A stretch of DNA of 64,000 bases from Rosellinia necatrix (taxonomy: Eukaryota; Ascomycota; Sordariomycetes; Xylariales; Xylariaceae), in assembly GCA_021209875.1 (NCBI GenBank), contig JAGYVD010000001.1:310001-374000 (forward strand), in the 5' to 3' direction. This document shows, piece by piece, positions 1,851-57,184 of the stretch. Below the pieces are notes generated by a model. That model was not told where the DNA came from and ran no database searches. It saw nothing but the letters and a program-made list of their open reading frames with translations. The position numbers and the translations under genes were made by a program. Each line of letters starts with the position of its first letter. The stretch's first letter is position 1.

Positions 1851-4800
1851 CTTATACCAATCTTCTTAATTAGCTTAATATTAAATAACTTTTATATATT
1901 TTGCTAAAAATTAAATATAAACTTTTAGTTTTTATTAAAAATAATTTTTTTAAAAATGCTTTAGTTGTTTAATAAAAATTATTTAATTAAAGCAGTGCTT
2001 TATTTTTCTGCTATATATTTCTTATATTTAAAAATTAATAATATACGTTTTAAAATAAAGCATAAAACTATTATTATAACGTTATATATATTAAAATACG
2101 GTTTTTTTTTGTTTAGCTGCTAAAAAATATTTTTAATTTTAATTTTTAAAAGTATTAAAATAAAATCTATATTTATAATATATATAAATAATAGGTTTTT
2201 AAGTTTAATTAATTTTAGCTTTTTTATAAGTAGCTGTTTATTAGTTTAGTTTAAATTATATATGTTATAATATTTAATATAATTTTTATTATTTATGTTT
2301 TATTAGCTATTATAAATAGTTCTAGTGTTTATATTATTTATTAAGCATTATAATATTGTTTTTTATTATATACTTATTTTAGAATTTTTTTAATTATGCT
2401 GATCAGGATATACAAGCATTTTATATTTATATGCGTGTTATATATTAGTCCGTTTATAATAATATTAAAAAAATACTTAGGCTTAAAATAAACCGCGACG
2501 TTTTTATTGCTTTTTTTTTTTAAAAATATTTTCAGGTTTTTTAATATTTATATATATTTATAGTTTTTTATATATGCTGCTAAAAATTCGTTTTTTAAAA
2601 TTTTATTTATAATTGCTTCTAATATAAATATATAAAACGCGGCTTTTAATTTTTTTTATATTATATTTAATATAAGTTTATTATTTATTTTTATTAGTTT
2701 TCTGTCTGCTTTTTAAACGTTTAATATTATTTATAAACAGCTAAAAACGTTTAATATATAGTTTAACTTATTTAATAAATAATATATATATAGTTTATAT
2801 TATAATAAATAAATAAATAAATTAATTAGTTTATGATTAATACGTTTAATAGCAGCAGTTTTTAAAGTTATTTGTTTAATAATACTTTTAATAGCTAAAT
2901 AGTTTATTAATATAATTATTAGTTTTTATTAAATTATATTATTATATGCAGCTTTTAACTATTTAAATTAAACATATTATTTTTAGTTTTAAAAGTTTAT
3001 AGTTTATTTTATATTAGCTAATAATTTATTTAAATATATTATTAATTAAACGTTAATATTAAAGATTGTTTTTTAGTTTTTATATATTTTTAGTTTTAAA
3101 TAAAAAACTATTATTTTAAAACTTTTTATATTAATTTATCGATTTATAAAAACAATTCTTTATATAAGTTATAATAAAACAAAATAATTTTTTAATATAT
3201 AGTATTTTATATAGCTTTAAATAAAACTATTTTTAAAACAGTTAGTTTATTATATTTAATTTTTATATATATTTTACGCTTATTTAATTTTTCTGTTTTA
3301 ATACGCTTTATTTATTTATTTTTAGCTAATAAAGCGGCTTTTTTTTTTTGCAACAGCTTAATTAGCTTTATATAATATAAAATCAGGCTATATAAAAATT
3401 TTGTCGCGCTTATATATTGTTTAAAAGCTTTTAATTAATTTAAAAAAGCTAAGTTGCAAATTATTACAACGCAGCTTTTTAATATTGCTATTTTAAACGT
3501 GTTTATTTTAAATCTAAATAAATCTATTAAAAAATAGCCGATAAAAAATTTCGTTAGTAATATAACTATATATTTATTTTTAAATAGCTTAAATATAGTT
3601 TTTAAATATTTTTATATTATTTAACAGTATTTAAAAATATTATTATATTATTTATAAATATTTTATAGTATTTTTAATATATTTTAAAAAATTATTTATA
3701 TAACGTTATATATAAGCTAAAAAATTATAGAATTTTATTATTATAACGTAGTATTTTTTTTATTTTTTTTAAGCTTATTATTATAAACCGGTTTTTAAAG
3801 TTTAAATATATTAAAAACTAATAAAAAAACGTTACTGTATTAATAATAGTTATAAAATGCTTTTTTTTAAAAAATTTAATTATTTCTGCTTGTAATAATA
3901 ATAAATAGTTATTTAATACAGCTATTTTATTAAAATTTTTTAAGTTTATAACTATTTAGCTTTTTTATATTATTATATTTAAAAGTTTTATTTTGTTTAA
4001 TATTAATTGTTATGTTATAAATACAGAATATATAAACAAAGTTAATTTATTAATTTATTTTATACGTTTTTTTTATAAAGTTGTTATAAAATTTATTAAA
4101 AAATCTATATTTTATAATTAAATAAGTATATATAACTTGCAAGCTTAATGCTTTAGTTTTGCTAACTTTTTATTAAAAAAGCTTTTAATTACTGTTTAAT
4201 TAATATATTAACTGTTTTTTTGTTTTGCCAAATATTAAAAGCTCCGGCTATTTTTTTGAATTTTTTAGCTAAAAACGTTTTTTTAGCATATATATATATG
4301 CTTATAAAAATAATTATTTCTAGCATGTTTATAAGTTGTTTGATTTTTAATATAAATATAATTTTAAAAATTTTAAAGCATGTTGTTTTTAGTATTAATA
4401 TATTTTTGTTTTTTTATTTAAAAAGGTTTATTATGGTTTTTATAGCATTTATAAGCAGCGTTTTAACAAAAAATATAACTAGGTAAGCTTTTATAAAATT
4501 AGCGATTTTATTTAATATTAACGTTTTATATAAAAATATATTGTTTATTGCTACCGTTATAATTATTAAAATTATTTTAAACTATATATTTATATATATT
4601 AATATTCTAACTTAATTAAATATTTATAAAAAGCTTTTTTTTTTATAAATATACGGGGTATTATTAAAAAATAGCTTTGCGTTATTATTTATATTAGCAA
4701 TTATAGCTGTAGTAATAACTGCTTATATATTTAAAGCTTTTTTTATAGTTGTAGCAAAATAGCTTTAATTTTTGTTTTTTTATATTATATTTATTTTAGC

Positions 4801-5190
4801 ACTTTTAGTAATTATAACACGTTTTTTAAACGCGTTAATTATTAATATAATATATAATATTTTATATTAATAATTATATTTATAGCCGCTAAAGTAGTTT
4901 TTAACGTAAAAAGCTAAAATTATAGTTAATAAATAAAGCTTTATATTTAACAGCTATATAAGCTTTTTTTCTGTTTTAAAGTTTATTTTTTTTATTTATT
5001 ATTTTTTTATATATTTATATTTTTAAGCTTAAATATTAAATTCTAATTAAAACTTATTTAAAATTAAAAATTAAATTATATTAGCTTTATAGCTTATAGT
5101 TATTTAATATAAAAAAAAAGTTATTTTTAAAAATAGATTAAGTTTTAATTTTTTATTACTTAGTTTTTTTATAAAATTTTTATTTTATTA

Positions 5191-12782: not shown

Positions 12783-14163
12783 TTAACTGTGCGAATTAAT
12801 TCCCCCATGACCCCTACTGACGAAGGTCTGATTTCTCCCAATGCTGATGCTTCCGGAACCAACATTCACGTTCCCCTGGCCCCGTAAAACAACTCGTCGT
12901 CCCTTAGTATGTCGTCGGCGCCTCTTTCGATGGCTCCTCTTTCGATGGCTACCATTGTCGCTTTCGGTCGACGAATCATCAGTGGGTGCATGCTTTGAGC
13001 GTTTTCTCGACGTTTCGTCCAAATCCTTCTCAATGCCTGGACACGTCCAGATTAGCATAACCTTTAATCGCCGATGCTAACGTAAAATCGTACAATTCGC
13101 CTCACCTAGCTCCCTTATGTTCGGCTGCGTGGCACTTTCAGCAATTATGGCATTCGGGCCAATCTTAGCTAATAACGCCTTCGCATAGGCTGCCGCCATG
13201 GCTGCCGCGTAGGGTTGCCATTCTTTGTTCTTATGTCGATCTGCGTAGTCACATACACCCCGAATAACGCCCACCGGGATGCGGTTCATCGCCCCGGCCG
13301 CCTCCATTTCTAATCCGATCAGATCATAGTTGTCCCTCAGCTGATCCCGCCGTGTCGCGTTTCTCATAAGCTTGTCCCCTGACCCAATTGACCCGTACCA
13401 TACCTGAGTCCGCTCGGATTCCGTTCGCCATGGACGCTCTACTAGGCAGTCCTCGTTCTTCCTGTCAGTTCCGTGTAGCTTATCTTTTTCTATTCCAGGG
13501 TCCTCGAATGTCCCGGTTCGATGACGTCTGGTTTTCATGCTCTCATAGTAACGCAAAAAGTGCCTGCCCTCATCGGGCCAGTCAAGCTTAATACTACGTA
13601 TAGCAGATCTAACGACTGGTTCCGTCTGAGATAGGGCCTGGCCTCCACGCAAGGGCAAAATCTCATTATCTCCGATGTCTTTACCTAAATCGTATGCCAC
13701 AAGTGCAGGGCTGCCATTATCAGAAAGTCCTACAAGGATATCGCCGAGCCTGATATCTCGAGGCGGATTTCGCTCCAGATTAGGGAGACCAGCAGCCTAA
13801 CACATAAATGAGATACAGTTGTCCAAAACAGAGTGTGGAGGATAGTGATTGACTCAGTTAAGTAGATTAGAGGCCACTAACGACGCCGACTAACAGTCCG
13901 AACCAGAGATTCGGAAAGAACTTTTTGATTTGGCTAGCAAGCGCTGCTGCTGACCCAGTACCGTACTCCTGGCCTGCGGGAAGCGTGGCGATGATGACGT
14001 TGTGGCCGCACATTTCGCCAGCGGTATAAACGTAGTCGTCTCCTCGTTCCATTTGGAAACGGCCATCATGTTGAAGATCCAACATGTGTTTCGCCGCTTG
14101 CGCCTCTATCTCCAGTGGCGCGATCCAAGCCACGCGGTACTCTTCAGGCCGTAATGTCGTCAT
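12783..14163 (-). CDS. PNP_UDP nucleoside phosphorylase-like protein with C-terminal Gly-rich IxIGR motif (candidate NLR effector)
   Basis: My model has three exons: 14163-13882, 13796-13106 and 13036-12783, with introns of 85 bp (GTTAGT to TTAG) and 69 bp (GTGAGG to CCAG). All joins stay in frame and give 408 residues. Residues 1-315 form a complete PNP_UDP_1 domain of the type found in fungal NLRs. It starts RPEEYRVAWIAPLEIEA, continues FGLLVGVAAGLP and DIRLGDILVG, then VWYGSIGSGDKLM. The nucleoside-pocket region GLEMEAAG lies at about 255-262 and GVCDYADRHKNKEWQPYAAA at about 275-294. Key acidic residues are present, so the fold looks intact. The tail (325-408) is basic and Ser-rich (RKRSK, HRKRRRRH), then carries GQGNVNVGSGSISIGRNQTF at 377-396. 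In most fungal proteins this domain is fused upstream of NACHT; here it stands alone, divergent from a NACHT-ankyrin gene carrying a similar motif. A role as a cell-death or nucleotide-cleaving effector is inferred. Confidence 0.85.
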
Positions 14164-14629
14164 CTTTGAAAGGGTATAAGAAAAATCATACTAGGCAGTA
14201 GAAGAAAAATTGACAAGATACGACGCGTTGAAGAGGCATGTCAGGCTCCTCTTGGCCTGAGAGGCCTCACGAATCTGCCTGCCAATCAACCTAACAGATT
14301 CCGTGTTTGCTATTTCGGGACTAGTAGTTCGCAAAGCATGCATGGCAGCGTTTCATTGTTCCGTCTGGTTCTGCGTAAGAAGTGGAGGCACCGAGGTTCA
14401 GCCGTTGATGCATGCTACTTAGGGAATTCCCCTGTCCCAGTCATTCTGGGACGACCACACCTTCAGTACCCGCTTAGAGTCTCTCTCATCAAGATGAACG
14501 CCCTTCAAACAGCAAGTCAGCTCACAGCTCAATATAGGAAGGATGTATAGACACCATACCCTACCGTTTTAGCACTAATATAATAGAAAAGAATCCGGGA
14601 TGTGCGTTCGGTATGTTGCTTAAAGTAAG
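14164..14629. promoter_or_regulatory. Shared divergent promoter of the PNP and NLR genes
   Basis: 466 bp separate the two start codons. The region contains a perfect 7-bp inverted repeat GTCCCAG/CTGGGAC with a 5-nt spacer (14434-14452), a second palindrome GGCCT-GAG-AGGCC (14254-14266), a CCAAT word near 14282, and an AT-rich TATA-like stretch (AATATAATAG) about 50 bp before the NLR start. Shared control of both genes is likely from the layout. The specific factors are unknown, and a short plus ORF at 14338-14550 looks spurious. Confidence 0.5.
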
Positions 14630-17529
14630 ATGTATCCAGCCTTAAAACGCCACAACATCGAAGATCCCTATGAAGATTCGGATGAGAGCGATTCTTCAGA
14701 TGTACCAGCAGATCACCAAAATCCGGACCAAGGTGGGATCGAGCTCTCCGGATATGGTATCGTCAACAATGATTCACGACTCGAGATTGGGAGAGATTTC
14801 AAGAGTAAGATGCCTCAAGTTTAACGATCCGCCGGGTTGCACTGATATACTTTATAGTTGTACACGTCGAAAATAACTTTCATTCCCCAACTGTGGGGTT
14901 GGGCCATGCCACGCGGCGTGAAAAGGAGAAACAAAGGGCCAAAGAGTTGAAAAGAGCCTTAAAACGCCAACGGAGAGCCGATCTGTCTACTCTCGATTTC
15001 CCTCACCATGGTCTCCGCGAAGCGAACACGGGTGACCCTCACACCGCAACTTGCCAATGGTTTCTAACACAGCGCTTTTATCTTGATTGGCTTGATGAAA
15101 CCAAATTTAGCGACCACCATGGTATCTTGTGGATCAAAGGAAAACCGGGCGCTGGGAAGTCGACTTTGATGAAATACGTGTTATCCCAGATACGTCGTGA
15201 TACGAGATGCGATCTCGTTATCTCATTCTTCTTTTCAGCACAGGGGGAGACGCTGGAGCGGTCTACTACCGGCCTATATCGGTCACTCCTCCTACAGCTC
15301 TTCAATGCGCGTCCCCGTCTAGAAGAGCTGCTAGACTCTTCGCTCACCGGCCGCCAATGGACCATACAATCATTAGAATCACTATTTAAAGCAGCCATCC
15401 ATGATCTGGAAGATCCTACCCTAACATGTTTTATCGATGCTCTGGATGAGTGCGAAGAGTCCCAAATCCGGAGAATGTTATCATTTCTAACCAACTTAAG
15501 TTCGCTGTCCAATCGTGAAGGGAATACCAGGCTGCTTTTCTGCTTTTCAAGTAGATATTATCCCAACATCACCATCAAAAACGGACTAATAGTTCGTCTC
15601 GAAGATCAAAATGACCACCGGAGCGACATTTCTCGTTATATCGATAGTATACTAAATATCGGTAACACAGAGCTCGCAGAGCAAATCCGCGCCGATGTCC
15701 TGAACAGCGCCGCCGGTGTTTTCATGTGGGTCGTCCTGGTGGTGGATATTCTCAACCGAGAGTACGACAGAGGGCGCCCAAATCGCCTACGTCAAAGGCT
15801 TCAAGACATGCCGAAAGACCTGCATGATCTATTCCACGATATAATAGCCCGCGACGAAAACAACCCGGAAGGACTTATCTGTTGTATTCAATGGATTCTA
15901 TTTGCAATTCGACCTCTCTCGCCTCAAGAACACTACTACGCAACACTATGTGGGGTAGAACCGCAAAGTATCCTGGCCTCCGACTCAGAGGTGTCAATCG
16001 AAGACATGACGAGGTACATTCTTGATATATCCAAAGGGTTGGCTGAGATAGTGGGGACGGAATTCCCCATTGTACGGTTCATCCACGAGTCGGCCCGGGA
16101 TTTTCTCTTGAACCAAAATGGGATTCAAAAGATACGGCAGGATCTCGGGCCTAATGTTAAAGGCTACAGCCACGAAAATATTCGATCGTGCTGCGCGGAA
16201 TATATCTTATCTATGCCCGTCAGAGAAGTATTTTGTCAAGAGACGGTCCGAGATGGGGTGGTAATAGGAGAAGCAAGCGGCGCTCATACCGAAGAAGTTG
16301 CGCCAAGCTTTTCATTCTCAGAGTACCCTAATGTCTTCGTCTCCCATGAGGACGAGACGGTGGCGGTGGAAAGGATTCGCGCTCGTCAGAAAGAGATCGC
16401 GTCAAGGCTTCCATTCTTAGAATACGCTACCAATTATATCCTCCAGCACGCTGAAGAAGCGGAATGTCACTCCATTAGCCAGTCCCGCTTTCTGTCAACA
16501 TTTCCGAGGGCAATGTGGATCGAACGAGTTAATATCTATAAACATACGTTTACTCAATACAGCCCGAACACCACTTGGCTATACATTTTAGCTGAGATGA
16601 ACCTGCCAGCTCTAATTCGGGCCTACGAGTCTGGCCAGTCTTGCTTTGCCGTTGAACCAGAGCGTTTCGGGGCGCCGATTCTGGCAGCTCTAGCCACCGG
16701 AAGCGGGGAGGCTGCCCAAGCGCTGTTGGAAGCTCAAGCAAGAAGGCTTCCCCGGGCTTATCCCGGCCGGTCGCGTATCAGCGAGCTAGTGACGAGAGAG
16801 GTAGATTGCAAACGGTTTAGCAGCGACTTCACATCCTTACGAGACAGAAACATTACCACATGCCTCGCTCAATTTGGAAGCGAAGTGGCTTTCGAACTGT
16901 TTCTTGCGACCGAAGATGTTGACTTGGATCTGAGAGATGGCGATGGGGGGACGGCGATGTCGTGGGCAGCGAGATGCGGACATAAGCCACTCATCAATCT
17001 GTTGCTCGCGAACGGCGCCGGTGTTGATGTCCAAGACGCCGGCGGCCGAACACCTCTATCCTGGGCGACGGGGTACGGAGAAGTAGCCGTTGCACGAGTA
17101 TTGCTCCAACGGGGTGCCAAAGTCGATTTGCAAGACAGATGCGGCTGGGGGCCGCTGTCTTGGGCCGTGGCTGGTCGCCATAAGGCCGCCGTCCGCGAGC
17201 TACTCGCCAACGGTGCAAACGCCCATCTTCCAGACAACGAACGCCGCACGCCCCTCTTTCTAGCAGCTACCGGCGGACACCTATCCATCTGCCGGATCCT
17301 GATAGAGCATGGGGCTAACGTGGACGCCCAGGACAATCTTGGCCGAACACCTCTATCATGGGCGATTGGTTACAATCAAAAAGCCATCGCCTGCTTATTT
17401 CTCGACGAGGGTGCCAGAACCGACGTGACAGCCTTTACTGGAGGAGACCTATTATCCTGGGCATCGAGTTATAAACACGCGACTTTGGCTCGGTTGTTAT
17501 TGAGCAGAGAACGTGAGCAGAGAATGTGA
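14630..17529 (+). CDS. NACHT-ankyrin NLR with N-terminal Gly-rich LxIGRD motif
   Basis: Two exons, 14630-14804 and 14858-17529, with a 53-bp intron (GTAAGA to TATAG, branch-like CTGAT). The join is in frame and gives 948 residues. Exon 1 (58 residues) is acidic and Ser-rich and ends with GGIELSGYGIVNNDSRLEIG followed by RDFK (residues 35-58), similar to the PNP tail motif. A basic helix (about 75-102) follows, then LDFPHHGLREANTGDPH and TCQWFL, the usual linker before fungal NACHT domains. The NACHT has Walker A GKPGAGKST (about 153-161) and Walker B CFIDALDEC (about 249-257). The C-terminal 260 residues are about six ankyrin repeats (for example GGRTPLSWATGYGEVAVARV). Such proteins are cytosolic STAND receptors, and the ankyrins probably sense a ligand. 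There is no catalytic effector domain, so output would need a partner, plausibly the divergent PNP gene. Confidence 0.88.
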
Positions 17530-18070: not shown

Positions 18071-19791
18071 ATGGGCGGTATCAACAAGCCCAGCAGTCAG
18101 TTCAATTCGCTGCATCCACCCATGTGCCCCCATTCACTCACTGACTGCCCTGTATCTATGCAGAGCCAAAGTCGAAGCGCACGCCCGTCCGGTTACGGCA
18201 CAAGATCGAGAAGGCCTCGGCCGCGAAGCAACGCAAGGCAAAGAAGGACGCGAAGAAGAACCCGCAATGGAAGTCCAAGCTGAAGAAGGATCCCGGCATC
18301 CCCAACCTGTTCCCCTATAAAGAGAAGATCCTCCAGGAAATCGAGGAGGCCAGGCGCAGGAAGCAGGAGGAGCAGCAGCGCCGGAGGGAGATGGCCAAGG
18401 CAGCCAGGACAGGGACCACGGCGGAGGGTGGTGACGGTGCCGGCGAGGACGACGCCGTCGACGAAGATGGAATGGATGGCGCATTCGAGGATAGCGAGAT
18501 GATGGACGAAGCCGGCGACGACGATGTCGACTCCTCAAATCCCATGGCTGCCCTGTTGGCAAGCGCGAGAGCTGCCGCACAGAAGTACGAGCGCGATCTG
18601 GGGAGCGGAGACGAGATGGACGACCACAATGACGACGATGATGATAATGGTGACGATTCTGACGGCGCTGCCGAATTCGCCCTTCACGATGTGTCAAGGA
18701 AGGCCCACGATAAGGTCTTCAAGCAAGTCGTGGACCAAGCAGACGTCGTGCTCTACGTCCTAGATGCGCGCGATCCCGAGGGCACAAGGTCGAAGGAGAT
18801 CGAGCGCATGGTCATGGCGGCCGCCAGCGGCGGGAAGCGGTTGATGCTGGTATTAAACAAGATCGATCTCATCCCTCCCCACATTCTAAAGGATTGGCTC
18901 CTTCACCTCAGACGGTATTTCCCTACCCTCCCTCTACGGGCATCTAAATCTGCCCCGAACTCACAAACCTTCAACCACCGCGACCTCACCGTACAGAGTA
19001 CCTCTGCCACCTTGTTCAAGTCCCTAAAATCCTTCGCCGCGTCGAAGCAATTGAAGCGCTCCGTCTCCGTCGGTGTGATAGGGTACCCTAACGTCGGGAA
19101 GTCATCCGTCATCAATGCCCTTCTTTCCGGCCTAGGCGGCCGAGGAAAGGCGGCCTGCCCTACCGGCGCAGAGGCCGGTGTTACGACAAGTATCCGTGCT
19201 GTCAAGCTTGACAGTAAACTTACGTTACTGGATTCGCCCGGAATCGTTTTCCCCTCCGCTGTGGACGGCGCCGGTCCCAAGAGGAGTGCAGTCGAGGAGC
19301 ATGCTCACCTGATCCTCCTCAACGCCATCCCCCCCAAGCAGATTGAGGACCCATTGCCCGCTGTTTCATTACTACTAAAGAAACTATCGTCCTCCGCAGA
19401 GTTGCTGCAGAAGCTGATGGAAGTTTACGATTTACCGCCACTCGTTTCTACTGGTGGTGATTCTACTACCGACTTTTTGGTGCAAGTCGCACGGAAACGT
19501 GGAAGATTAGGCCGTGGTGGTATTCCCAACCTGCCAGCCGCTGCCATGACAGTCGTTACAGACTGGAGGGACGGGCGGATCCAGGGATGGACAGAGGCAC
19601 CAAAGCTACATGTTGCCGCTGGCGGCATTAGCGGAGGCGTGCTCAACGACGGCGCTCAAACGGCTACATCCACTATGGCCGACCAGAAAGAGATCGTCAC
19701 GGAGTGGGCTAAAGAGTTTAAGCTTGAGGGCTTATGGGGTAACGGTGACGATGACGATGATAAGGAGGCAGCAGATGCAATGGAACAATAA
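18071..19791 (+). CDS. nug1: Nucleolar GTPase NUG1 (circularly permuted, GNL3 family)
   Basis: NUG1 is a nucleolar GTPase needed for 60S ribosomal subunit maturation and export. The best model has a 7-nt first coding exon (18071-18077, ATGGGCG), an 86-bp intron (18078-18163, GTATCA to TGCAG, branch CTGAC), and exon 2 at 18164-19791, giving 544 residues. The start then reads MGEPKSKRTPVRLRHKIEKA, followed by KKDPGIPNLFPYKEKILQEI, the usual NUG1 N-terminus. GTPase motifs come in permuted order: DARDP (203), NKID (234-237), GYPNVGKSS (309-317) and DSPG (359-362). Acidic runs lie at about 98-170 and at the C-terminus. The neighbour on the left is the NLR; this gene marks the start of core genome. 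Confidence 0.95.
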
Positions 19792-26529: not shown

Positions 26530-29457
26530 CTACTGTGGTTGATTCGGCCACCAGTTTCCACCCGCCGGATTCTGGGGATTTGACCAAGTGGACGAGCCAG
26601 CAGGGGTGGAGCTGGGATTTTGAGGCATGAATTGTCTAGGGGTTTGATCGGGAGGATACATCCCCTGCCCTTGAGTTGGGTAGCCGTGAGGAAGACCCTG
26701 CATGCCAGAATATTGCATGGTGCTAGGCTGCATCTGAGGCGTGCTGCCAGGGTGGCGCAATTGAGGGGCTGGCGATTGCTGGTGATGAGGCGAGCCCTGA
26801 GCTTGAGTTGTATAACCGGGGTATTGCTGAGGAGTTTGTGGTGTCTGAGGCCCCCACATCGAGGGACCATAGTTGTACGCCGGCGCACCTTGTGGCATGC
26901 TACCCGGGCCAGACTGTAGGCTTGGGGGCCGGGCCTGCTTCTGATTCGGTGGTTGGGGAATAGCTCGCATCGAGGGTTGGCCCATAGGCTGCTGCTGCTG
27001 GGAGTGGATAGGCTGCGTATACGGCGCTGCAGTCATCATTAACTGAGGGCTCTGGTTAGGAAGGATTCCGGATGGGGTCGTGTGTGGCGACTGGCCGGGC
27101 CTCGTAGTAGGCAAGCTAGGCTCGGTAATAACAGGCTGCGACGTCGCCGGTTGCTCGTGTGGCCTCCTCCATATATCGTGCAAATAATCAGACCGGCTCT
27201 CTCGGCCATGGTTTAGAGTACGGTTGAACTCGGCGGCGTGATGGGCCTGTTGGTGTATCTCGGCCAGTGGAGTCGGTTGTGTCCTGTCCTGGTAAGCCTG
27301 GCCAGTGATCTCCTGGCGGGGACCTCCCTTGATAAAGTGGCTGTAATCTCGAGTCCTCGTGTCATTCACATCTGGTCCAACTGTTATCATGGGCATTCTT
27401 GTCGTAGGTCCCGGCGGTCCCATCATACCTGGTTGCACAAGAGGCTGCGGAGCGCCACCAAACTGGTGGGTATTCGCGTATACGATTTCTCCCTGAGGTC
27501 CTCCCGGAAGTGGTGGCATGTTGTTGTTCGCCTCGGCTGCTGCTTCTCTGGCCTTGGCTGCGCCTGGTCTCTTCTCGCCAGCCATGTCAGCCTCGGTGAA
27601 TCCTTGTTTTCGCGCCTTGCCCTCCCAGTAGTCATCGCGTACCCTCCTGCCGCTGACTATGACCCTACTCCCAAACTGCCGAAACATAGATCGAGCGGTC
27701 ACAATAGCGATCTGCCTGGACCGGTACGAGAAGGGTAGTATTTCCTGGTGGACGAGATCATCCTTCTCCACCTGGTTGGCAATGATCTTGAAGAGAGACC
27801 TATTTTTGTTAAACAGCAGATATGAGTCGCGATACCCAAGGACCCGAGCGCATTCGGTAGCGAGCATGAACAGCTTGTCCCCTCTCTCCGGGACGAGAAA
27901 GGTTCGACATCGATATTCACGCCCACCTAGCAGTTGGCCATTCGGCATAACCTTCTTCTCCCCAGCATCGTCCGTTTCGCGAGGGATATATTCGTCGCCA
28001 GCGGGATTGAGCTGATCGGTAGTGTGGTCACGTACGGTCGGAAGGGCCTTTAACGTCGACTTGGTAGGTGTGGTCTTCGGCGGCGGAGAAGCTTGGGCCG
28101 GAGTGTAGCTCCCAGGCTGCCCCGGCAGCGGCGCATTCTGGGATTGGGGGGTCTGCGGTGGTAAGGGCTGTGACATTGGGGGCGGTATGGGTGTTGTATT
28201 GTGAGTTGTTGGATTCAGATAACTATCGGATAACCGCGTTGCTTTCATGGGACGGCCGCGTTTTCTCGGTTGTCTCAAATCACCTGTGTGGCGATTGGGA
28301 TTAGTAAGCGTAAATAAAGAGGTCGCGCGCCGCGTCTTTGTCAATGAATGCCGACGATGGCGCTACTATCCTCCACAAAAAGGGCTGCGACCTGCGTCGA
28401 GGCGACAGCGGTCGTTATTGAGCAGAAAGGGAGGATGCTGGTTAAATGCAACATGGGAAGCCTCGCAGTCGCAGTAGCGGAAGCAGCGGAAGCAGCAGTA
28501 GCAGTTGTTGTGGTAATAAGAACAACAGCAATGGAGGGGGGGCCGAGCGGCGACGGGGCACAGGCTGGATAGGCTAAGGTACACAAACTAAACGGAGGGT
28601 GAGACTTACCATCATCCCCGGGGGTTTCAGATGTCGGCGCGTCTTGATAGGCGTCGGGGGAGCGACTCCGCTTCAAGCCTCGGGAGTTTACTGGATTCAG
28701 CAGTTCTGCGCAATCAGAGAGCAGTAGATTAGCAACCAGCATGTACTCGGCGACATGCGGTGACACGAAGGCAAGACACGGCAATCAAGAGACACAAAAA
28801 TAAAAAATAAAAAGTGGATGACGGTTTCGCGGCCATCGTGACGATTGTTGAAGAATAAAATAAAATGACGAGGCGCCGGCACTGCGACCGCAACCGCGAC
28901 CATTGGTCATTTAAGTTTTAACCCAACTCCACCTCTAGCACCGGCACCAAGGAACAGGGGGAGGTTGGATAGGCATTTTGCGACAGCACCGACGACGGTT
29001 TGCGGCGGCAGCAGCCATGGATGCAGAGATTAATCAACCACCGATTGACCGTGATGTTTGTGGATGCGCCCGTTCTGATATCATCGATGCGCACACGAAG
29101 GGCGCATCATGATGACGTCCCGGCGTGTTGCGCGCAGTGTTGATAGAGGAGGACGACAACCGAGACGATGCTAGGAATAAACCAACCGAGTTGTTCTTGT
29201 TCGTTTTTCTTCGTCGCCAGAAAAAAAAAAAAAGAGAGAAAAAAAAGGGAAGAGGGGAAAATGAGAAGGGCCAGAGAAGTCAAAAACAACAACCAGAACG
29301 ACAAGGTGGTGGTGATGGTGATGGTGATTGTGACTGGTGATGGGGGATCGATGATTAGATGAACTCAAGGCGACTTACCTGGATTGAGGGCGGCAGGGTT
29401 GATAGTTGCGGGATTGATGGTCGCATCCTCAGCGCCGTTAGGCTGGGCGGAATACAT
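26530..29457 (-). CDS. rsc7: RSC7/SWP82 (NPL6) subunit of a SWI/SNF-type chromatin remodeller
   Basis: This subunit family belongs to RSC/SWI-SNF remodelling complexes in the nucleus. My model has three exons: 29457-29379 (starts MYSAQPNGAEDATINPATIN), 28705-28610 (ELLNPVNSRGLKRSRSPDAY) and 28283-26530. Introns are 673 bp (GTAAGT to GCGCAG) and 326 bp (GTAAGT to CACACAG, branch ACTAAT). Both joins are in phase and give 642 residues. An AT-hook-like PRKRGRPMK is at 64-72. The RSC7/SWP82 domain spans about 153-280: GDEYIPRETDDAGEKKV, GGREYRCRTFLVPERGDKLF, GYRDSYLLFNKNRSLFKII and IAIVTARSMFRQFGSRVI. The rest is a Pro/Gln/Gly-rich low-complexity tail typical of the family. The introns are unusually long for this window and hold repeats. 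Confidence 0.93.
29219..29345. repeat. Polypurine and GGTGAT tracts in rsc7 intron 1
   Basis: A run of almost pure purines (29220-29275) is followed by GGTGAT-type repeats (29304-29345) on the plus strand. The transcript therefore has a long pyrimidine tract within intron 1. This explains several spurious short ORFs. Confidence 0.75.
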
Positions 29458-44507: not shown

Positions 44508-47500
44508 ATGACGAGCCTCAAGAGATCCGTCAACACGGATCCGTTTGCATCCAACCTCTCCAGCAAGGTTTACGTGAGGTCGACCAAGAGCGGCAAAGTC
44601 CAGAAAATCGTTCGCGAGGTCTACTTGCGACAAGACATCCCATGTTCTTCACGGCTCTGTTCAACATGTCTGGCCACGGCGCCCAGAAGCGCTGCCGGTG
44701 TTGGTGGGTTCGCCTCGTCTCGTTCAACCCGCGTTGCCAAGGAGCCCGCCATGGCTAACCCTCATCACAGTGAGCCCCTTCGTGCTGTCGGAAAAGCCGG
44801 CAGGCACCAAGGCGTACCCGCAAGGACACTACCTCGTCCCGGATACCAACGCGCTACTTAATGCTATGGATCTGTTCGAGCAGGCGACTGCCTTCTTTGA
44901 TGTTATCATTCTGCAGACCGTTCTGGAGGAACTGCGCAACAGGTCCCTGCCTTTATATAACCGGCTTATCGGGCTCACCAAGAGTCAAGAAAAGCGGTTC
45001 TATGTTTTCTTTAACGAGTTTCGGTTGGAGACCTATATCAATCGCGAGGCGGATGAGACTATCAATGACCGCAACGACCGCGCTGTCCGACGCGCTGTCA
45101 AGTGGTATAATGAACACCTGGGCCAGACCAAGTCCAAGAGTACACCAGTCACAGTCATGTTATCCGACGACAGGGGTAACCTAGAGAAGGCGAAACAAGA
45201 GAAAGTTCCTGCCGTCAAATTACGCGACTACGTATCGGGCCTGAAGGATTCCGAGCGATTACTGGACATGATTGCCGAGTCGGAGGAGCGTGTTGCATCG
45301 AAGGAGAAGAACACGGGATTCCTTTACCCGGAACATTTTAGTCTGTCCAAGATGATGACGGGGGTAAAGAGCGGTATGCTGCATCAGGGGATATTTAACG
45401 TATCACCGTACAACTATCTTGAGGGCTCGATTAAAGTGCCTGCTTTCCCGAAACCTCTTATCATTCTCGGGAGAGAGAATATCAATCGCTCTGTAGATGG
45501 AGATGTGGTAGTGGTCGAGGTGCTACCGCAGGACCAGTGGAAAGAACCTTCTACTAAGATTATCGAAGAAGAAGCTATCACAAAGAACGAGAATGCAGAA
45601 AATGACGAGGGCGCGGCAGATGTTGTTACGGAGAGAGAAAGGAAAGCCCTCCAGGAGCAGGTGAAGAAGACCCAAGTCTTGGCCACCGAAGGGAGGCCAC
45701 AGCCCACAGCTAAAGTCGTTGGTGTTATCAAACGGAATTGGCGCCAGTACGTTGGCCATGTAGACCCATCTTCAGTCAGCCAGGCCGCAAGACAGGGCAG
45801 GAAGCAGGAGAGTGTGTTTCTAATCGCGATGGACAAGAGGATCCCCAAAATTCGGATACGGACACGGCAAGCCGGGGAACTTCTCGGAAAGCGAATCCTG
45901 GTTACCATTGATTCCTGGGATCGTGAATCTAGGCATCCTGTTGGTCACTTTGTCCGGTCGCTCGGCGAATTGGAGACCAAGGCCGCAGAGACCGAGGCCC
46001 TGCTGCTCGAGTATGACGTGCAGTACCGGCCATTCCCCAAAACCGTTTTAGACTGTCTACCTAAAGAAGGCCACGACTGGAAAGTCCCTGTCAGCACCGA
46101 CGATCCGGGCTGGAAAGGCAGGGAAGATCTCAGGGGCTTGCTGATTTGCAGCATTGATCCAATCGGCTGCCAGGATATTGATGATGCTCTGCATGCCAGA
46201 CCATTACCAAATGGGAACTACGAAGTCGGCGTGCATATTGCCGACGTGTCCCATTTCGTCAAGCCGGCGAATGCCATGGACACCGAAGCTAGTATACGTG
46301 GTACAACCGTCTATCTGGTCGATAAGCGCATTGATATGCTGCCGATGCTTCTGGGCACCGACCTCTGCTCGCTGAAGCCCTACGTGGAGCGCTACGCCTT
46401 CTCCGTTCTCTGGGAGTTGAGCCCGGACGCGGACATCGTCAGCGTACGGTTTACCAAATCCGTCATCAAATCCCGGGAGGCGTTCAGCTACGAACAGGCG
46501 CAGCTACGCATCGACGATGCATCACAGCAGGATGAGCTCACGGGCGGTATGCGGACACTGCTCATGCTCTCCAAGAGGCTGAAGCAGAAGCGCATGGATG
46601 CCGGCGCCCTGAGTCTCTCGTCGCCCGAGGTCAAGGTGCAGATGGAGTCCGAGACATCGGATCCGATCGACGTCAAGACCAAGGAGCTTCTCGACACCAA
46701 CTCGCTGGTAGAAGAGTTCATGTTGCTCGCCAACATCAGCGTGGCGCGCAAGATTTACGAGGCGTTCCCGCAGACGGCGATTCTGCGGCGCCACGGGGCG
46801 CCACCCAAGACCAACTTCGACGAGCTCGCGAACCAGCTGAAGGTCAAGCGGGGTCTCGAGCTACGCTTCGACTCGTCCAAGGCGCTCGCCGACTCGCTCG
46901 ACGCGTGCGCGGACCCGTCGGAGCCCTTCTTCAACACGCTCGTGCGCATCCTCGCGACGCGCTGCATGATGAGCGCCGAGTACTTTTGCGCCGGGACGCA
47001 GTCGTACCCGGAGTTCCGGCACTACGGGCTCGCGTCCGAGATCTACACGCACTTCACGAGCCCGATCCGGCGGTACGCGGACCTCGTGGCGCACCGGCAG
47101 CTCGCGGCCGCCATCGACTACGAGGCGACGCACCCGTCTTCGCGCGCGCGCGGCCGCCTCGAAGCCATCTGCAAGAACATCAACGTCCGCCACCGCAACG
47201 CCCAGCTCGCGGGCCGCGCCTCGGTCGCGTACTACGTCGGCCAGAGCCTGCGGGGCCGCGTCGCCGACGACGAGGACGCCTTCGTCATGCGCGTCTTCAG
47301 CAACGGCTTCGTCGTCCTCGTCCCCCGCTTCGGCATTGAGGGCCTCGTCCGCCTCCGCGACCTCGCCGACCCCGAGCCCGACAGCACCTTCGACCCCGAC
47401 TCCTACACCCTGCGCTTCTCCGGCTCCCGGGACGGCGCCGTCCAGCTGTTCCAGAAGGTCCGCGTCCGCGTCCGCGACGTCAAGGACGAGGCCACCGGCA

Positions 47501-47544
47501 AGCGCGGCGCCAAGATGGAGCTCATCGGCGACGCCCCGCGGTGA
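44508..47544 (+). CDS. dis3: Exosome exoribonuclease DIS3/RRP44
   Basis: DIS3 is the catalytic subunit of the RNA exosome, with a PIN endonuclease and an RNase II-type 3'-5' exonuclease. Two exons, 44508-44697 and 44771-47544, with a 73-bp intron (GTGTTG to CACAG, branch GCTAAC) give 987 residues. The start reads MTSLKRSVNTDPFASNLSSK, then VYVRSTKSGKVQKIVREVYL and a CR3-type cysteine cluster (C46, C51, C54). The PIN domain begins VPDTNALLNAMDLFE with D88 and contains TINDRNDRAVRRAVKWYNEH and SDDRGN. Cold-shock-like domains follow. The RNB active site is IDPIGCQDIDDAL (525-537), and a C-terminal S1-like domain ends the protein. The donor GTGTTG is unusual. The last 700 bp have nearly all codons ending in G or C, unlike the 5' half, which creates long false ORFs in other frames. 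Confidence 0.96.
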
Positions 47545-51389: not shown

Positions 51390-53039
51390 AGGAACTGATA
51401 GGAGGATGCCCCCATCTATATAAAACTATACCGCAGCAAAGGGGGAGGGCGTTGCTGAACGATGCAAATGGGATTGATATTTCTGAGGCGTCGAGAATAA
51501 TTCAATGTTGTCGACGGTAGCCGGATCAGTAATAGTACCAAGTAACTTACCAAGTAGGTTGGTTGTGATACTGGGTAGTTAGCTTTTTTTCCTTTTAATA
51601 GTGACCTCAATATGGCCAAGAGAGGTAGGTAGGTACCTACTGTAATGGGCGCTAGTAGGATTGTGTATTGGTGGTGGTTGAATGCTGTCAGTTAGGACCT
51701 AGGTATGACCTCACGCACCTAACCATCAAAAGTAGTACCTACTGGGCTGACTTGACGCGTCTCTCCCTCCTGAAGCGCGTTGAGGGGCTACCTGGATGGT
51801 TGCACAATAGGTAAGTCTAACCGACCCTAAGGGTTACAAGTACCTAGTTATTAGGTGCATGTGTGACCCTACCCTAGTCTACTGTAGGTAACACCTTTAT
51901 TGCCCTTCCTGCACGGACCATTTTGTCCCTTCCTACCTCACCTAGACTCACTGTATGCAAATGGCACTCGGCGCCAGTGCCGACAGGAATGTGGATGCTC
52001 AGGGTCGGTGTATGGTATAAATTTCCCCGCTACTTGTAAGCATGGGCTTCCTGCGGAGATCTTGGTCCGGCGCGTGACAGTCGATGCCCAATCCACCTAC
52101 CAGAAATAATGAACATCCGATTAGAAGCTTCGATCGATTCCAAAAGGCCGATTGCTTCATATTCCACGTTCCACGAGATCCATGTCCTGCGTCGTTCTAT
52201 ATATGCCTGCTTGCCTACATCTGGCCTTCTTGCAGAGGTACTTATTTACTGACCTTCCTACCTCTTCTTAGCCCGTAAATTAGGTACATACATACAGACA
52301 GCAGGATTATATACTTCCAAGCTGCCTCTATACATACTTGCTCACCGAAGGCATCTGCCCACCTAAGTATATAGGTAGGTACTTCTTTCACATCAGGACA
52401 AGTATATATATTAGCGGGTAGAGAGATACAAGATACGAGCACCAAGTAAGCAGGTAGCACCCGACGCAGCTTCTCCCTTCAGATTAACCCAGGCGGATAG
52501 GCAAGAGGTACCGCGGCTCCAAATCTCCAACGCTCCCGACCAAATCTCCCGACCAAAATCTCCAATTTGGCCCAATCACCAACCCGGCTTCCCCCCCAAA
52601 GCCAGAAAGTCATTATCGCCGCCGCCCTTATCCCCCCCGACGATCGCCGGGATACCCAGATACCCAGATACCCAGACAGCCCAAGGATCCGAGACATAGC
52701 TCTCTCGCTTCGGCTCTCCGCAGCTGTGCTCGACGCAAAAACAGCCTTCCCAGACAACGGATATAATAATACGGCTAACGTATACCGTCCGTTCTGGGCA
52801 CTAGCGCACGCCACGGATACGACACACCTCTGCACCTCTATGCTGCACGAGCTGGGCCCGTCCCCTTGGAGGTCTGGGTCTGCCACGCTCGTCCGAACGC
52901 TGCCCGCCTCTGCCCTCGTCGCATTGCTACACCCGGACCCCCGGATGGTCGTTGGGTCCCAGTGACTGCTGGACTCTGCTCCAGCGCCAGCGCCAGCTAG
53001 TCTCGTCCCGTCCCCCTCCGTCCTCCGCCCTCCGTCGAC
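51390..53039. promoter_or_regulatory. Divergent promoter and leader region of sld3 and ssk2
   Basis: 1.65 kb. It contains TAGGTAGGTACCTACT near 51622, AGTATATAGGTAGGTACTT near 52367, repeated AAATCTCC words (52523-52570) and ATACCCAG three times (52652-52675). An upstream ORF described separately ends shortly before the ssk2 ATG. Confidence 0.6.
52567..52965 (+). other. Possible upstream ORF in the ssk2 leader
   Basis: 132 codons, starting MAQSPTRLPPQSQKVIIAAA and ending 74 bp before the ssk2 ATG. It resembles no known protein. If the ssk2 transcript starts upstream of 52567 it would be a long uORF that could dampen translation; if not, it is chance. The transcript start cannot be seen. Confidence 0.3.
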
Positions 53040-56000
53040 ATGTCAACCGAGACATCGCCCCGCGCCGTACGATTTTTCCAGAGCGACACCAACACAGCCC
53101 AGGACGGCAAGGCAAAGAACCCGCGGCTTATCGCCGTCCACACCGATTCTGATGGGTCCGGCTCCGCCTCCGGTTCGTCTGAATTCTCCGTGCCCGATCC
53201 GTCCGAACTCGAACGCGACGACGAGATAGCGGCCCTGGGCCCCTATGGGGAGGGCGCCCTGTCTGCCTCCATGGCCTCCTTGGTGCCCAACTCGGTCGCC
53301 AACAATCCCGCCCGCCAGCGGGCTTCGGCTGCCGATGCCTCTACCACCAGCCCTACCACCAACGGCGTCAACACGCGGGCTCTGCAGCGCCCACATGTCG
53401 CCCGTACGCCCTCCAATACCTATGCCCCGCAACGAGTGCCTCAACCAACCTTCATCACCACCTCCACTCGATCTATCTCCCGTCGCCGCGACCCCGTCGA
53501 CAAGTTTCGTGACCAAGAACCGGCCTACCTGCGCATGATGCGCCAAGACCCCCTACCAAGCAGCTACTTCGACCCACAGACGCCGAGCGTCGACTATTCA
53601 GATGAAGAGTCGGAAGGAGAGACCCCTTCGTCCGAAGGGGTCTTCGATGACCGTTTCAACGACGAGACCATCATGTTCCAGAGCCTCATCGACGATATCC
53701 AGCCCACTGAAGAAGATATGAGGGACCCTGCCAATCGCGAACGGCTAGAGTGGCACGGTATGCTGGCCGCCGTCTTGACTGGAGACGTAGTAAAGCAGGA
53801 GAAACGGCGACTGTTAGGAACCTCAGAGTTCCAAGGCGCCAAAGCCGCCCACAAGGCCGACTTATGGATAGGCCTTAGGGCAAAGACATGCGGCCGCTCC
53901 TTTGCAGTGCAGCGGAAGATGGTCGATGAGGCACGGAGCAACCTTGATCGGATAATCGACGAGATCACCCGTTTTGAAGTCCAGGGCGAGGCCGAGGCAG
54001 GTAAACCGGCTATCGAACAGATCGCAGATGTTGTAAAGAAGATCGAGAAATGCGAGAGCTTATATTCGTGCTGGAAGACGCTTGGGCAAGCCCATCCGGG
54101 GGCGACTCTTCCAGCATTCCAGGAAGCTTGCGAGGCCGTCCTCTCGTGGCACAACACGAACGAAATGATAAACACCGAGCTTTCTATCCTCAAGAAGTGG
54201 GTGGGCAATGACGATCTCGATTTCCACCGGAAGGAAGCCCGATCCCCGAGTACTAATAGGCTCAGCGATGAGACAACTTTCTTGGACCGCCTGTTGAAGG
54301 AAGACGGCCTTACGTCGCTTCACGAGGACACCGACGAGGCGACAAAACAGGAGCATGCCTTAAAAACAAAGACGCTGGTACGGAGGAGCATGCTCACGCC
54401 TATCTCAAGTACCATCGCAAAAGTCAAGGCCACCCTAATCATGAATTCGGCAGCTTTCCAGAAGCGGCATCTACCTCCATACATCGAAGAGCTCCTTACC
54501 CTGATTAGTTTCCCGTCTCGCCTGATCGAAGAGATCATCAGTGTGAGAGCAGCCTACGCACGAAAGATGAGAGAGACAACCCAGCAGACCCCTATTCTTC
54601 AAGATCAGATGCTCTCCCAATTTGAATTAGTGTTGAAATTGGCAATACGCATCAAACAAGAGACCCTCACGATCTCACAGCCTCAGCCGGGATGGCAACT
54701 ACCGCCATGCATCGACGAATCGTTTGATCAGGTGGTGCTAGATGCATTGAAATATTATTTTAAATTGCTGAACTGGAAGTTGAGTAGGAATAAAAATACC
54801 TTCAAAGAAGCCGAAATTTTGTCGCAGGAGTGGGACTTCGCCAATGAGATCGGGCGGTATCTCCAAGGCGGCGATATTGAAGTTGCCGAACAATTCAGCA
54901 ATCTCACTTACAAAGTCCTCAGTCGACTAAGTCAGACCTTTGAACGCGAGCTTCAGAGAAAACCTAAAGAGAGCACGGATGATATGACAAAAAGGTATAT
55001 GCAAATGCTAGACTCGGTCCGTGTCAGGCAGAGAATGTTACAACGATTCTCGAGGCTCTTAAGCGATCATTATGAGAATGCGTCAGATATGAGTATCGCC
55101 CTGGACGCCGAAGACTTGCAGTACTTGTACGAGCGCCTCTCCGTCACGGGCCACTTCTTGGTCGATGAATTCGATGGTGTACAGGTCGTTGCCTCTCCTA
55201 CCCTAGCCGGCCGTAATGAAGAAGTCCAATCTATCCTGCGGACTTGCTTGCACGAACAGGTGTCGGAAGACCCAACCGACCCTTATATACTGATACTACG
55301 CCCCGAAGCCCCCCTTGGCTGGTTTGGCAGTCGGGGTAGTCAATCCCTCAACCTCGAGTCAACTGACTTGAAACTTGGCCAGCTCCGGTTGATCACAGAC
55401 GGCTCTCAAGCCCGCCTAGCGCACGTGAGAAGTGTGTTCCTAGATAGAATTGAAATGCATTTGGATCTCATGGTGGAAGCACGCTCGAACCTGCACAAGG
55501 TCAACGCAAGATTGTTTGAGATCCGAAAAGTTGGTTTCAAGCTGTCCAATACGTTCATGGACAGCGTGGCAATCATCAGAAAGCAGACGCAAGGCATGAA
55601 CTGCCATGACCTTATTCAGACCTGCTTCGTATTTGCCACCGAGTTCGGAAGACGATCACTTCTTTACATGGACAGCAACCGTCGCCAGATGAACAACATC
55701 AAACTCACAAAGCTTGGCTTGGACTGGGTGAGTTTCATATGCGATGATTGCAAAGTTACAGATCGTAAATCGTTTAGATGGGCGGTCCCTGCCTTGGAAT
55801 TCACAATGAGCATGACTACGGGTCGCCATATTCTAGGCCTAGGCGATGATGAATACGCCAGACTACGCGCCAAAGTGTCTGGCTGTATGTCTCTTCTCAT
55901 CTCTCACTTCGACATTCTGGGTGCCAAATCCAATCAAGCCGCTCAGTATGAACGAGAGCGTATCGAAGCGCTTATTGGGCAATTTCGAAAATTCGACAAG

Positions 56001-57184
56001 AATAGGAATATTGATGACGAAGACGCCGCAAAGCTGATTCAGGAACAGCGCTTGAAACGGCTCGAGCTTGTCGATGAAGTACAAAGAGAGATCGTTGCCG
56101 AGCGACAAGGTCTAGGACGAGTTCTAGAAGTCTCCAATGAGGTCGATCGATCCTTGGCTTACCTCTCTTCGTCGGCCACCAACGTCACGATACGGTGGCA
56201 ACAGGGTCATTTCGTCGGTGGAGGTACTTTTGGAAGCGTGTATGCCGCTATGAATCTTGACACCGGACGTCTTATGGCAGTCAAGGAAATACGGCTCCAA
56301 GACCCCAAGCTAATCCCACAGGTCGCGGGGCAAATCAAAGATGAGATGCAAGTCCTAGAGGTCCTCGATCACCCAAATGTGGTCTCTTATTATGGCATTG
56401 AGGTGCATCGCGACCGCGTGTACATCTTCATGGAATTCTGCTCCGGAGGTTCCTTGGCCGGCTTATTAGAACACGGCCGTATCGAAGATGAACAGGTTGT
56501 CATGGTGTATGCTCTGCAGCTTTTAGAAGGACTGGCTTATTTACATGAAAGTCACATCGCCCACCGTGACATTAAGCCGGAGAGTGAGAATCCCCACATG
56601 TACCCGCTTGGCTAATACGAAGCTGACAAGTTGCAGATATCCTTCTTGATCACAATGGTATTATCAAGTATGTCGACTTTGGCGCGGCCAAGGTTATTGC
56701 GCGTCAAGGACGGACGCTTGTCCAGAAAGCGGTTGCAAGTAGACCCCTAAAATCTATGACAGGTACTCCCATGTACATGTCGCCCGAGGTTATCATAGGA
56801 GACAACCCTGGGCAAGATGGAGCGGTCGATATATGGTCATTGGGATGTGTTATCCTGGAAATGGTCACAGGGCGGCGGCCATGGTCTAGTCTGGACAACG
56901 AGTGGGCCATTATGTACAACATCGCGCAAGGGAACCCACCACAGTTACCAGGCCCTGACCAATTAAGTCCGCAAGGTATTGACTTTTTAAAGCGCTGCTT
57001 TATCCGGGATCCGAAGAAGCGGGCCAGCGCGGTCGAGCTCCTTCAACACGAATGGATAATGTGTATCCGTAATCAAGTCGTTGAGCCGCCAACGCCGAGT
57101 GACAGCAGTGGATCTGCTCAAAACACACCACATCCCACTTCGGCAGGGAGCAGGGCGAGTGCTGGTGCTGATGGGTTTTATTAG
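53040..57184 (+). CDS. ssk2: MAP kinase kinase kinase SSK2/OS-4 type (HOG pathway)
   Basis: This MAPKKK relays osmotic and oxidative stress from the two-component phosphorelay to the PBS2 and HOG1 kinases. Two exons, 53040-56583 and 56637-57184, with a 53-bp intron (GTGAGA to TTGCAG) inside the catalytic loop, rebuild KPENILLDHNG and give 1363 residues, usual for the family. The N-terminal 160 residues are low complexity. A long helical regulatory region follows (about 200-1020). The kinase domain is about 1050-1325: glycine loop GGGTFGSVY, AVKEIRL, catalytic HRDIKPEN (1175-1182), DFGAAK (1195-1200), activation-segment TGTPMYMSPEV and DIWSLGCVILEMVTG. The C-terminus is Ser/Thr-rich and ends GADGFY at a TAG. 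Protein-like sequence continues in the same frame past that stop. Confidence 0.95.

Follow-up and report, generated by a model that had tools for sequence, protein, structure and literature searches.

Do two neighbouring fungal genes whose products seem to share a short Gly-rich motif act as a receptor and its effector, and to which family of signalling systems would they then belong? This question is raised by a divergent gene pair of Rosellinia necatrix, located in a stretch of 64,000 nucleotides (G000:C1:310001-374000, hereafter the window; genome of 49.1 Mb in 12 contigs), one partner encoding a PNP_UDP protein (PNP) and the other a NOD-like receptor (NLR) with a NACHT domain and ankyrin repeats. 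Our analysis indicates that the two genes probably represent a PUASM-type pair for amyloid signalling, in which the NLR motif would template the PNP_UDP enzyme and thereby cause cell death or arrest. By its sequences, the pair is a diverged PUASM pair, lacking the Gln at the motif centre and having a receptor motif that is shorter by one residue. Family membership and conservation support the two-component reading well, the direct similarity of the partners supports it weakly.

The PNP gene is encoded on the minus strand in three exons (408 amino acids, aa) and the NLR gene on the plus strand in two exons (948 aa), both being arranged head to head with start codons at 14163 (PNP) and 14630 (NLR). 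After splicing, the PNP carries the peptide LRGQGNVNVGSGSISIGR at aa 375-392 and the NLR the peptide LSGYGIVNNDSRLEIGRD at aa 39-56. An earlier note on this DNA had placed the pair at 12783-17529, with these peptide positions and a gap of 466 bp between the starts, and splicing of the window exons reproduced all of these values. Both PNP introns (85 and 69 bp) have GT..AG borders. Database gene models, namely the R. necatrix proteins P0122 (403 aa) and P0002 (963 aa) as well as Xylaria and Nemania orthologues, read through identical junctions and thus support the splice models of both genes. The features of the pair are as follows:

12783..13036, minus strand: PNP gene exon 3, with Lys/Arg-rich linker and C-terminal motif (splice model, conservation)
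12834..12887, minus strand: effector-side PUASM-type motif, aa 375-392 (regular expressions, profiles, shuffles)
13037..13105, minus strand: PNP gene intron 2, 69 bp (splice model)
13106..13796, minus strand: PNP gene exon 2, with EMEAAG and CDYAD signatures (splice model, alignments)
13179..13415, minus strand: Pfam PNP_UDP_1 match, aa 222-300 (E 0.0026, 17.6 bits, below the curated cut-off of 25.1)
13797..13881, minus strand: PNP gene intron 1, 85 bp (splice model)
13882..14163, minus strand: exon 1 of the putative PNP_UDP effector gene, aa 1-94 (splice model; P0122 the same across the junction)
14164..14629, no strand: intergenic region common to both divergent starts, 466 bp (gene models)
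14630..14804, plus strand: NLR gene exon 1, with acidic leader and motif (splice model, alignment)
14744..14797, plus strand: receptor-side PUASM-type motif, aa 39-56 (regular expressions, profiles, shuffles, hhalign)
14805..14857, plus strand: NLR gene intron, 53 bp (splice model and database gene models)
14858..17529, plus strand: NLR gene exon 2, with NACHT-type NTPase and ankyrin repeats (splice model, Pfam)
15049..15555, plus strand: NACHT/NPHP3_N NTPase domain, aa 123-291 (Pfam E 1.5e-32)
16951..17490, plus strand: ankyrin repeats, about aa 757-936 (Pfam Ank_2 E 9.9e-35)

PUASM was defined in 2022 by Wojciechowski et al. as FxGxGxQxxGxGxF, a C-terminal pattern of PNP_UDP proteins that recurs N-terminally in adjacent NLRs. 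In the parts of that study drawn on here, fibrils are formed by synthetic PUASM peptides from a Colletotrichum pair, the effector-side motif acts as a prion in Podospora, and motifs of this type in NACHT NLRs have their relative majority at positions 20-49 (PMC9815663). Compared with the literal pattern, the window PNP keeps all four Gly and shows L, V, and I at the places of F, Q, and F, and in the window NLR the first two Gly are retained. The central Gln is also absent from the NLR peptide validated in the 2022 study (PMC9815663); consequently, the family is not delimited by the literal pattern.

Family membership was evaluated by profiles on each side separately. A plain alignment of both ends is not significant; the significance of the motifs rests on their own-side families. 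Tails of the 120 listed PNP homologues (the best 120 of 1,201 found when 8,000 candidates were scored; many of those listed bear the name nucleoside phosphorylase or purine and uridine phosphorylase) were sorted by regular expression: 25 are PUASM-like, 10 carry a second motif of the GPISGRNVIAG type, and 85 show neither; P0198 and P0240, counted among the last, resemble the second-motif relatives by eye. A PNP-side profile of 20 tails without Xylariaceae recognized the window PNP tail with an independent E-value (iE) of 1.2e-8, or 2.4e-8 after addition of the Colletotrichum tail and that of a pair on contig C2 of the same genome (described below). The PNP-side PUASM profile reached 29.5 bits on this tail, a score matched by 0 of 5,000 shuffles.

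The NLR-side profile consisted of five hand-picked sequences: the Colletotrichum peptide, the receptors on contigs C10 and C2 of the own genome, P0054, and P0009. On the first 110 residues of the window NLR it gave 9.7 bits, again with 0 of 5,000 shuffles as good. For a ranking of 124 proteins, P0054 and P0009 were excluded from the 120 NLR matches (the best 120 of 1,205). The window NLR (residues 39-60) ranked third (iE 0.09) within a leading group of P0003, P0006, the window NLR, P0002, P0005, and P0098, followed by P0004 at rank 7, P0007 at rank 9, and PNP tails at ranks 8, 10, and 11; apart from P0098 and these tails, the proteins ranked with it are its close orthologues. The first match outside the motif appeared at rank 12 and the window PNP tail at rank 14 (iE 27). 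An hhalign comparison of six Xylariaceae NLR motifs with the five-sequence NLR-side set yielded a probability of 93.7 (E 1.9e-7). What places the pair within PUASM is thus a PNP_UDP effector candidate whose C-terminal motif fits the PNP-side profile and, in the adjacent gene, a NACHT NLR whose motif near the N-terminus fits the NLR-side profile.

Within the six unspliced frames of the window, the strictest of three regular expressions found only the two motif sites, a looser one found two additional sites that we judged to be chance, and the canonical PUASM expression with Gln found none. Apart from the two loose-pattern matches, no third motif carrier was recognized by regular expression in these frames. 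Neither Pfam families in the PNP tail or NLR N-terminus nor solved amyloids in the PDB matching either motif were found at E up to 10.

Conservation among relatives provides the second line of evidence. Across four Xylariaceae PNPs, identity amounts to 82% in the motif and 83% in the enzyme domain, but to 35% in the linker and 39% after the motif; across six Xylariaceae receptors, the motif is 84% identical, the leader 39%, the linker 36%, and the NACHT region 70%. Such conserved islands between variable stretches are expected for a functional motif. The co-occurrence in relatives that the earlier note had proposed to check was mostly borne out, with linkage being deduced from equal contig sizes within a species and not from seen gene order. 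Seven species (R. necatrix, Nemania sp. FL0916, N. abortiva, Xylaria sp. FL1042, Hypoxylon spp. FL1857 and FL0890, and Daldinia eschscholtzii) have, on contigs of equal size, a PNP with the motif at its tail together with an NLR whose N-terminus is PUASM-like, and a PNP is present on an equal-size contig for four of the six close NLR orthologues. The receptor motif was found by the NLR-side profile in five of the seven species and by alignment only in the two Hypoxylon species, whose receptors carry Leu at the motif centre. In view of these receptors and of the validated receptor peptide, a missing Gln need not mean a loss of function. Annulohypoxylon maeteangense, having a PNP with a PUASM tail (P0132) and an NLR match (P0076) on equal-size contigs, was left out of the pair count, since P0076 starts with another domain and without such a motif. 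In a matrix of nine pairs, from which Hypoxylon trugodes was omitted for its degenerate receptor motif and Xylariaceae AK1471 for a PNP model stopping before the tail, true partners scored on average 32.1 versus 25.2 for permuted ones (p 0.00085; p 0.025 after reduction to five lineages, relatedness being uncorrected in both cases).

The effector candidate itself was characterized with regard to its enzymatic type. Its Pfam PNP_UDP_1 match stays below the cut-off (17.6 versus 25.1 bits), and PADLOC assigned P0122 to the PN-superfamily effectors (E 3.7e-8) and to PDC-M60C (E 6.6e-10). In an alignment of 62 of the 120 listed PNP homologues (A2, with P0122 as first row and reference of the test), E20 and E259 are invariant and D277 is nearly invariant, and the EMEAA and Asp signatures line up with those of MTA/SAH nucleosidases (MTAN). 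We take E20, E259, and D277 to be the catalytic residues, with E20 as the third, as in MTAN. The active-site residues of the window-type PNP hence appear to be of the nucleosidase type. Bacterial PN-superfamily effectors and PNP-type ATP nucleosidases, of which Detocs is an example, have the same PNP_UDP fold and conserved nucleosidase-type residues; in contrast to these, activation of the window PNP is proposed to occur through an amyloid-type motif. Two reviews, in the parts drawn on here, attribute ATP nucleosidase or hydrolase activity to the PNP_UDP domains of immune proteins (PMC10197012, PMC12881547), and by analogy ATP may be the substrate of the window PNP.

Taken together, we propose a mechanism in which the ankyrin repeats would sense a trigger, upon which the NACHT-ankyrin receptor would oligomerize. 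Its N-terminal motif (aa 39-56, reaching to about 60) would adopt a beta-arch amyloid-like fold and pass it on by templating to the C-terminal motif of the adjacent PNP_UDP protein. Clustering on the Lys/Arg-rich linker would activate the enzyme, which would cut a purine nucleotide, most likely ATP, and nucleotide depletion would let the cell die or arrest. The receptor/effector logic suggested by the earlier note agrees with the family evidence in the N-terminal position of the NLR motif, the C-terminal position of the effector motif, the adjacency of the genes, and the phosphorylase-like effector. Its expectation of novelty for a PNP_UDP effector was mistaken, since effectors with this domain were described in 2022 with PUASM, HRAM/NLR12, and one further PNP_UDP motif (PMC9815663, in the sections considered). 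The new element is a small one, namely a PUASM dialect of Xylariaceae whose receptor carries ankyrin repeats and which varies between strains. Of the papers listed for PUASM, two appear by title to deal with it, and the ten ranked first for NLRs, NACHT, and amyloids of R. necatrix did not name the species; among these papers we saw no account of this locus.

Within the same genome, 18 paralogue regions were scanned. A strict regular expression demanding a particular ending missed the motifs on C2 and C10, which the PUASM expression found:

G000:C2:58500-66500 (L039): PUASM pair, PNP at 2828-4036 on the minus strand, receptor motif at about 4762-4830 on the plus strand (regular expression)
G000:C10:1485500-1491500 (L040): receptor, NLR on the minus strand, PNP fragments at about 3442-4004 on the plus strand

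On C2, the PNP ends with FHGRGVQNLGNFSVGGNYSVG and the divergent NACHT gene starts with MELHGQGIQNSGIFNVAGDIKIG, in the same layout as in the window; judged by these ends, this is a textbook canonical PUASM pair. By eye, the C2 receptor contains WD40-like repeats, and its frame contains stop codons, some of them possibly intronic. The C10 NLR is the closest paralogue of the window NLR (51%) and carries FNGYGIQNAGNGNFEVHGDVNI beside divergent PNP fragments. With a canonical PUASM N-terminus and a decayed PNP, it is a possible orphan receptor. The C2 PNP scored 60 with the C2 receptor, 47 with the C10 receptor, and 16 with the window receptor, and the window PNP motif scored 23.5 with its own receptor, 31.5 with that of C2, 21.5 with that of C10, and 33.5 with the Colletotrichum NLR. 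From these cross-scores, the receptor side looks private and the effector side less so.

The nearest PNP paralogue (G000:C1:1093490-1095740, at about 985-3240 of L037) ends with NGPITGRNVIAGTSMSGGVMNMNFS, and the gene next to it, by eye apparently an NB-ARC NLR, starts with the similar LFGAISAGNTLAGNHFGGQTNITFNG. In PMC9815663, the counterpart of this second type may be the rare motif PF01048_015. Furthermore, PNP_UDP matches lie just upstream of NACHT matches on the same strand in G000:C1:475500-481500 (L051) and G000:C9:492500-498500 (L053), an arrangement as in fused PNP-NACHT receptors that exists alongside the two separate genes of the window; the C9 copy contains stops.

Several results weigh against the PUASM-pair reading and have to be balanced with the above. 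The plain local alignment of the PNP tail with the NLR end scored 31, which is not significant, as 1,219 of 5,000 double shuffles and 319 of 5,000 shuffles of the last 40 aa equalled or exceeded it. The NLR-side profile gave 0.5 bits on the window PNP tail (254 of 5,000 shuffles as good), the PNP-side profile found no match in the window NLR, and a both-sides profile reached iE 13 on the latter, beneath chance IGRDF matches. Searched against 121 PNPs, a profile of the Xylariaceae NLR motifs placed two correct tails first, but at iE 2.2 and 4.2; searched against 121 NLRs, a profile of the Xylariaceae PNP motifs preferred other IGRDF stretches, and the window NLR motif was outside the best 16. 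With hhalign, the Xylariaceae NLR motifs matched the Xylariaceae PNP motifs with a probability of 33 and all PNP-side tails with 1.3. The window PNP motif is closer to the C2 and Colletotrichum NLR motifs than to that of its own partner, and four of the five sequences of the NLR-side profile stem from NLRs of one broad family. Among relatives, no motif-bearing PNP was found within the 120 listed matches for Xylaria telfairii or Ustulina deusta, the latter having one truncated PNP on a contig of different size. Each window motif is therefore PUASM-like on its own side, and the cross-side link is weak in the Xylariaceae lineage.

Three other explanations were weighed. That the two ends are a mere coincidence of Gly/Ser/Asn-rich disordered termini would agree with a raw alignment score inside the shuffled range, but is hardly credible in view of own-side profile scores reached by 0 of 5,000 shuffles, the strong local conservation of the motifs, and a textbook pair of the same layout elsewhere in the genome (C2). 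Alternatively, the genes could descend from a PUASM pair whose motifs drifted until mutual signalling was lost, the receptor having another or no partner or the PNP serving several receptors. We regard this as unlikely, even though the weak direct similarity of the partners, the C10 receptor that keeps a canonical motif beside mere PNP fragments, and the higher score of the window PNP motif with the C2 receptor than with its own would all fit. Both motifs are strongly conserved across Xylariaceae, neither partner has the central Gln in this lineage (although it is also missing from two Hypoxylon receptors), true partners outscore permuted ones over the nine pairs with relatedness uncorrected, and the unspliced frames of the window revealed no third carrier by regular expression.

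The remaining explanation, membership in the HRAM kind (HRAM3/NLR12), which is related to HET-s and has also been reported to occur as a single motif on PNP_UDP proteins, is in our view quite improbable. It gains from the published occurrence of HRAM/NLR12 with PNP_UDP, including single motif copies (PMC9815663, in the sections considered). The HRAM rule, as far as given in the parts of PMC4518210 and PMC5485727 used here, demands hydrophobic residues at 5, 8, 10, 16, and 18, a basic residue at 15, and Gly at 19 (the last being deduced). The receptor motif agrees in five of these seven features (hydrophobic 10, 16, and 18, Arg 15, and Gly 19), but has Ser and Gly at positions 5 and 8, and the effector motif agrees in three of seven. 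Moreover, the window PNP contains one motif copy versus the two repeats of the canonical HET-s type, Pfam and PDB searches with the motifs gave no HET-s match, and the profiles assign each window side to PUASM, in a comparison without an HRAM profile. HRAM membership was accordingly rejected on positions and copy number, likewise without such a profile. As the second half of the receptor motif conforms to HRAM positions 15, 16, 18, and 19, a mixed origin is possible.

Comparison with the described systems further delimits the pair, which we continue to read as a PUASM-type receptor and effector. With PUASM pairs such as EQB50682/EQB50683 of Colletotrichum gloeosporioides it has in common the effector domain, the motif positions, and the neighbouring genes (PMC9815663, in the sections considered), as well as the effector Gly spacing G-x-G....G-x-G and the receptor pattern G.GI...[IL].[VI]G.DF.I. 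It differs in that Gln is replaced by Val/Ile in Xylariaceae effectors and by Val/Ile/Leu in receptors and the first Phe by Leu, in the receptor motif of the window type, one residue shorter and with SRLEIGRDF, in ankyrin repeats on the receptor, where the published pairs have NACHT or NACHT-WD40 NLRs, and in partner motifs that are less alike than those of canonical pairs. The proposed logic of amyloid templating between receptor and effector is the same as in HRAM and HET-S/NWD2 systems, and the window receptor likewise has the series Arg15-hydrophobic16-hydrophobic18-Gly19 (PMC4518210, PMC5485727, in the parts used). Unlike in HET-S/NWD2, the window effector is an enzyme and not a pore-forming HeLo protein, it carries one copy and not two, and the other core positions differ. 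A short amyloid motif common to neighbouring receptor and effector genes is also known from the PP and sigma clusters; their motifs differ, and their effectors are HeLo-like, SesA, or lipase-type (PMC5485727, in the parts used).

Comparison with database proteins of R. necatrix revealed variation of the pair. The window PNP differs from P0122 in 16 of 403 aligned residues (4.0%) and the window NLR from P0002 in 43 of 948 (4.5%). Within the receptor motif (aa 35-60) there is no difference between the two strains, and the effector motif shows two changes, at positions 376 and 392. A single neighbouring gene served as reference, an STE11/SSK-type MAP kinase kinase kinase (frame 53037-56609, 36 kb off; best 120 of 1,030 homologues listed, 8,000 candidates scored), which differs from R. 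necatrix P0242 by about 0.3% (a rounded identity of 100%). It has 4 substitutions in the first 1,182 residues, and the last 9 differ, the open frame seemingly leaving the exon there; the next listed match reaches 91% and Nemania diffusa 89%. P0242, P0122, and P0002 all lie on a contig of 1,779,776 bases, and, given the near-identity of the kinase, the window very probably belongs to another strain of this species.

The pair is flanked by genes of housekeeping appearance, namely a Grn1-type GTPase (18145-19791), an Rsc7-type subunit (26533-28362), and Rrp44/Dis3 (44578-47541), as assigned by Pfam. A LysM-like relic suspected by eye to the left of the PNP gene was dismissed, as it had no Pfam match.

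The variation between strains makes the window pair a candidate mycelial incompatibility locus in R. necatrix, a species in which, according to the part of PMC4103508 considered, a virus was transferred between strains of differing mycelial compatibility with the help of zinc ions. A tentative and rather doubtful extension can be formulated: the PUASM code may have split into a private dialect in Xylariaceae, a single Rosellinia nucleus may hold two insulated PNP_UDP amyloid channels, one of the V/I type with IGR (window) and one of the canonical Q type (C2/C10), and the window pair may serve as an allorecognition locus at which ATP depletion in mixed cells would hinder the spread of mycoviruses. 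In more general terms, the enzyme-effector branch of amyloid signalling in fungi, described only recently, gains a further pair, which suggests that a motif can drift on both partners and yet stay conserved within a lineage. The canonical pair on C2, the orphan-like receptor on C10, and the diverged window pair, all within one genome, offer a natural test of the specificity of amyloid signalling channels.

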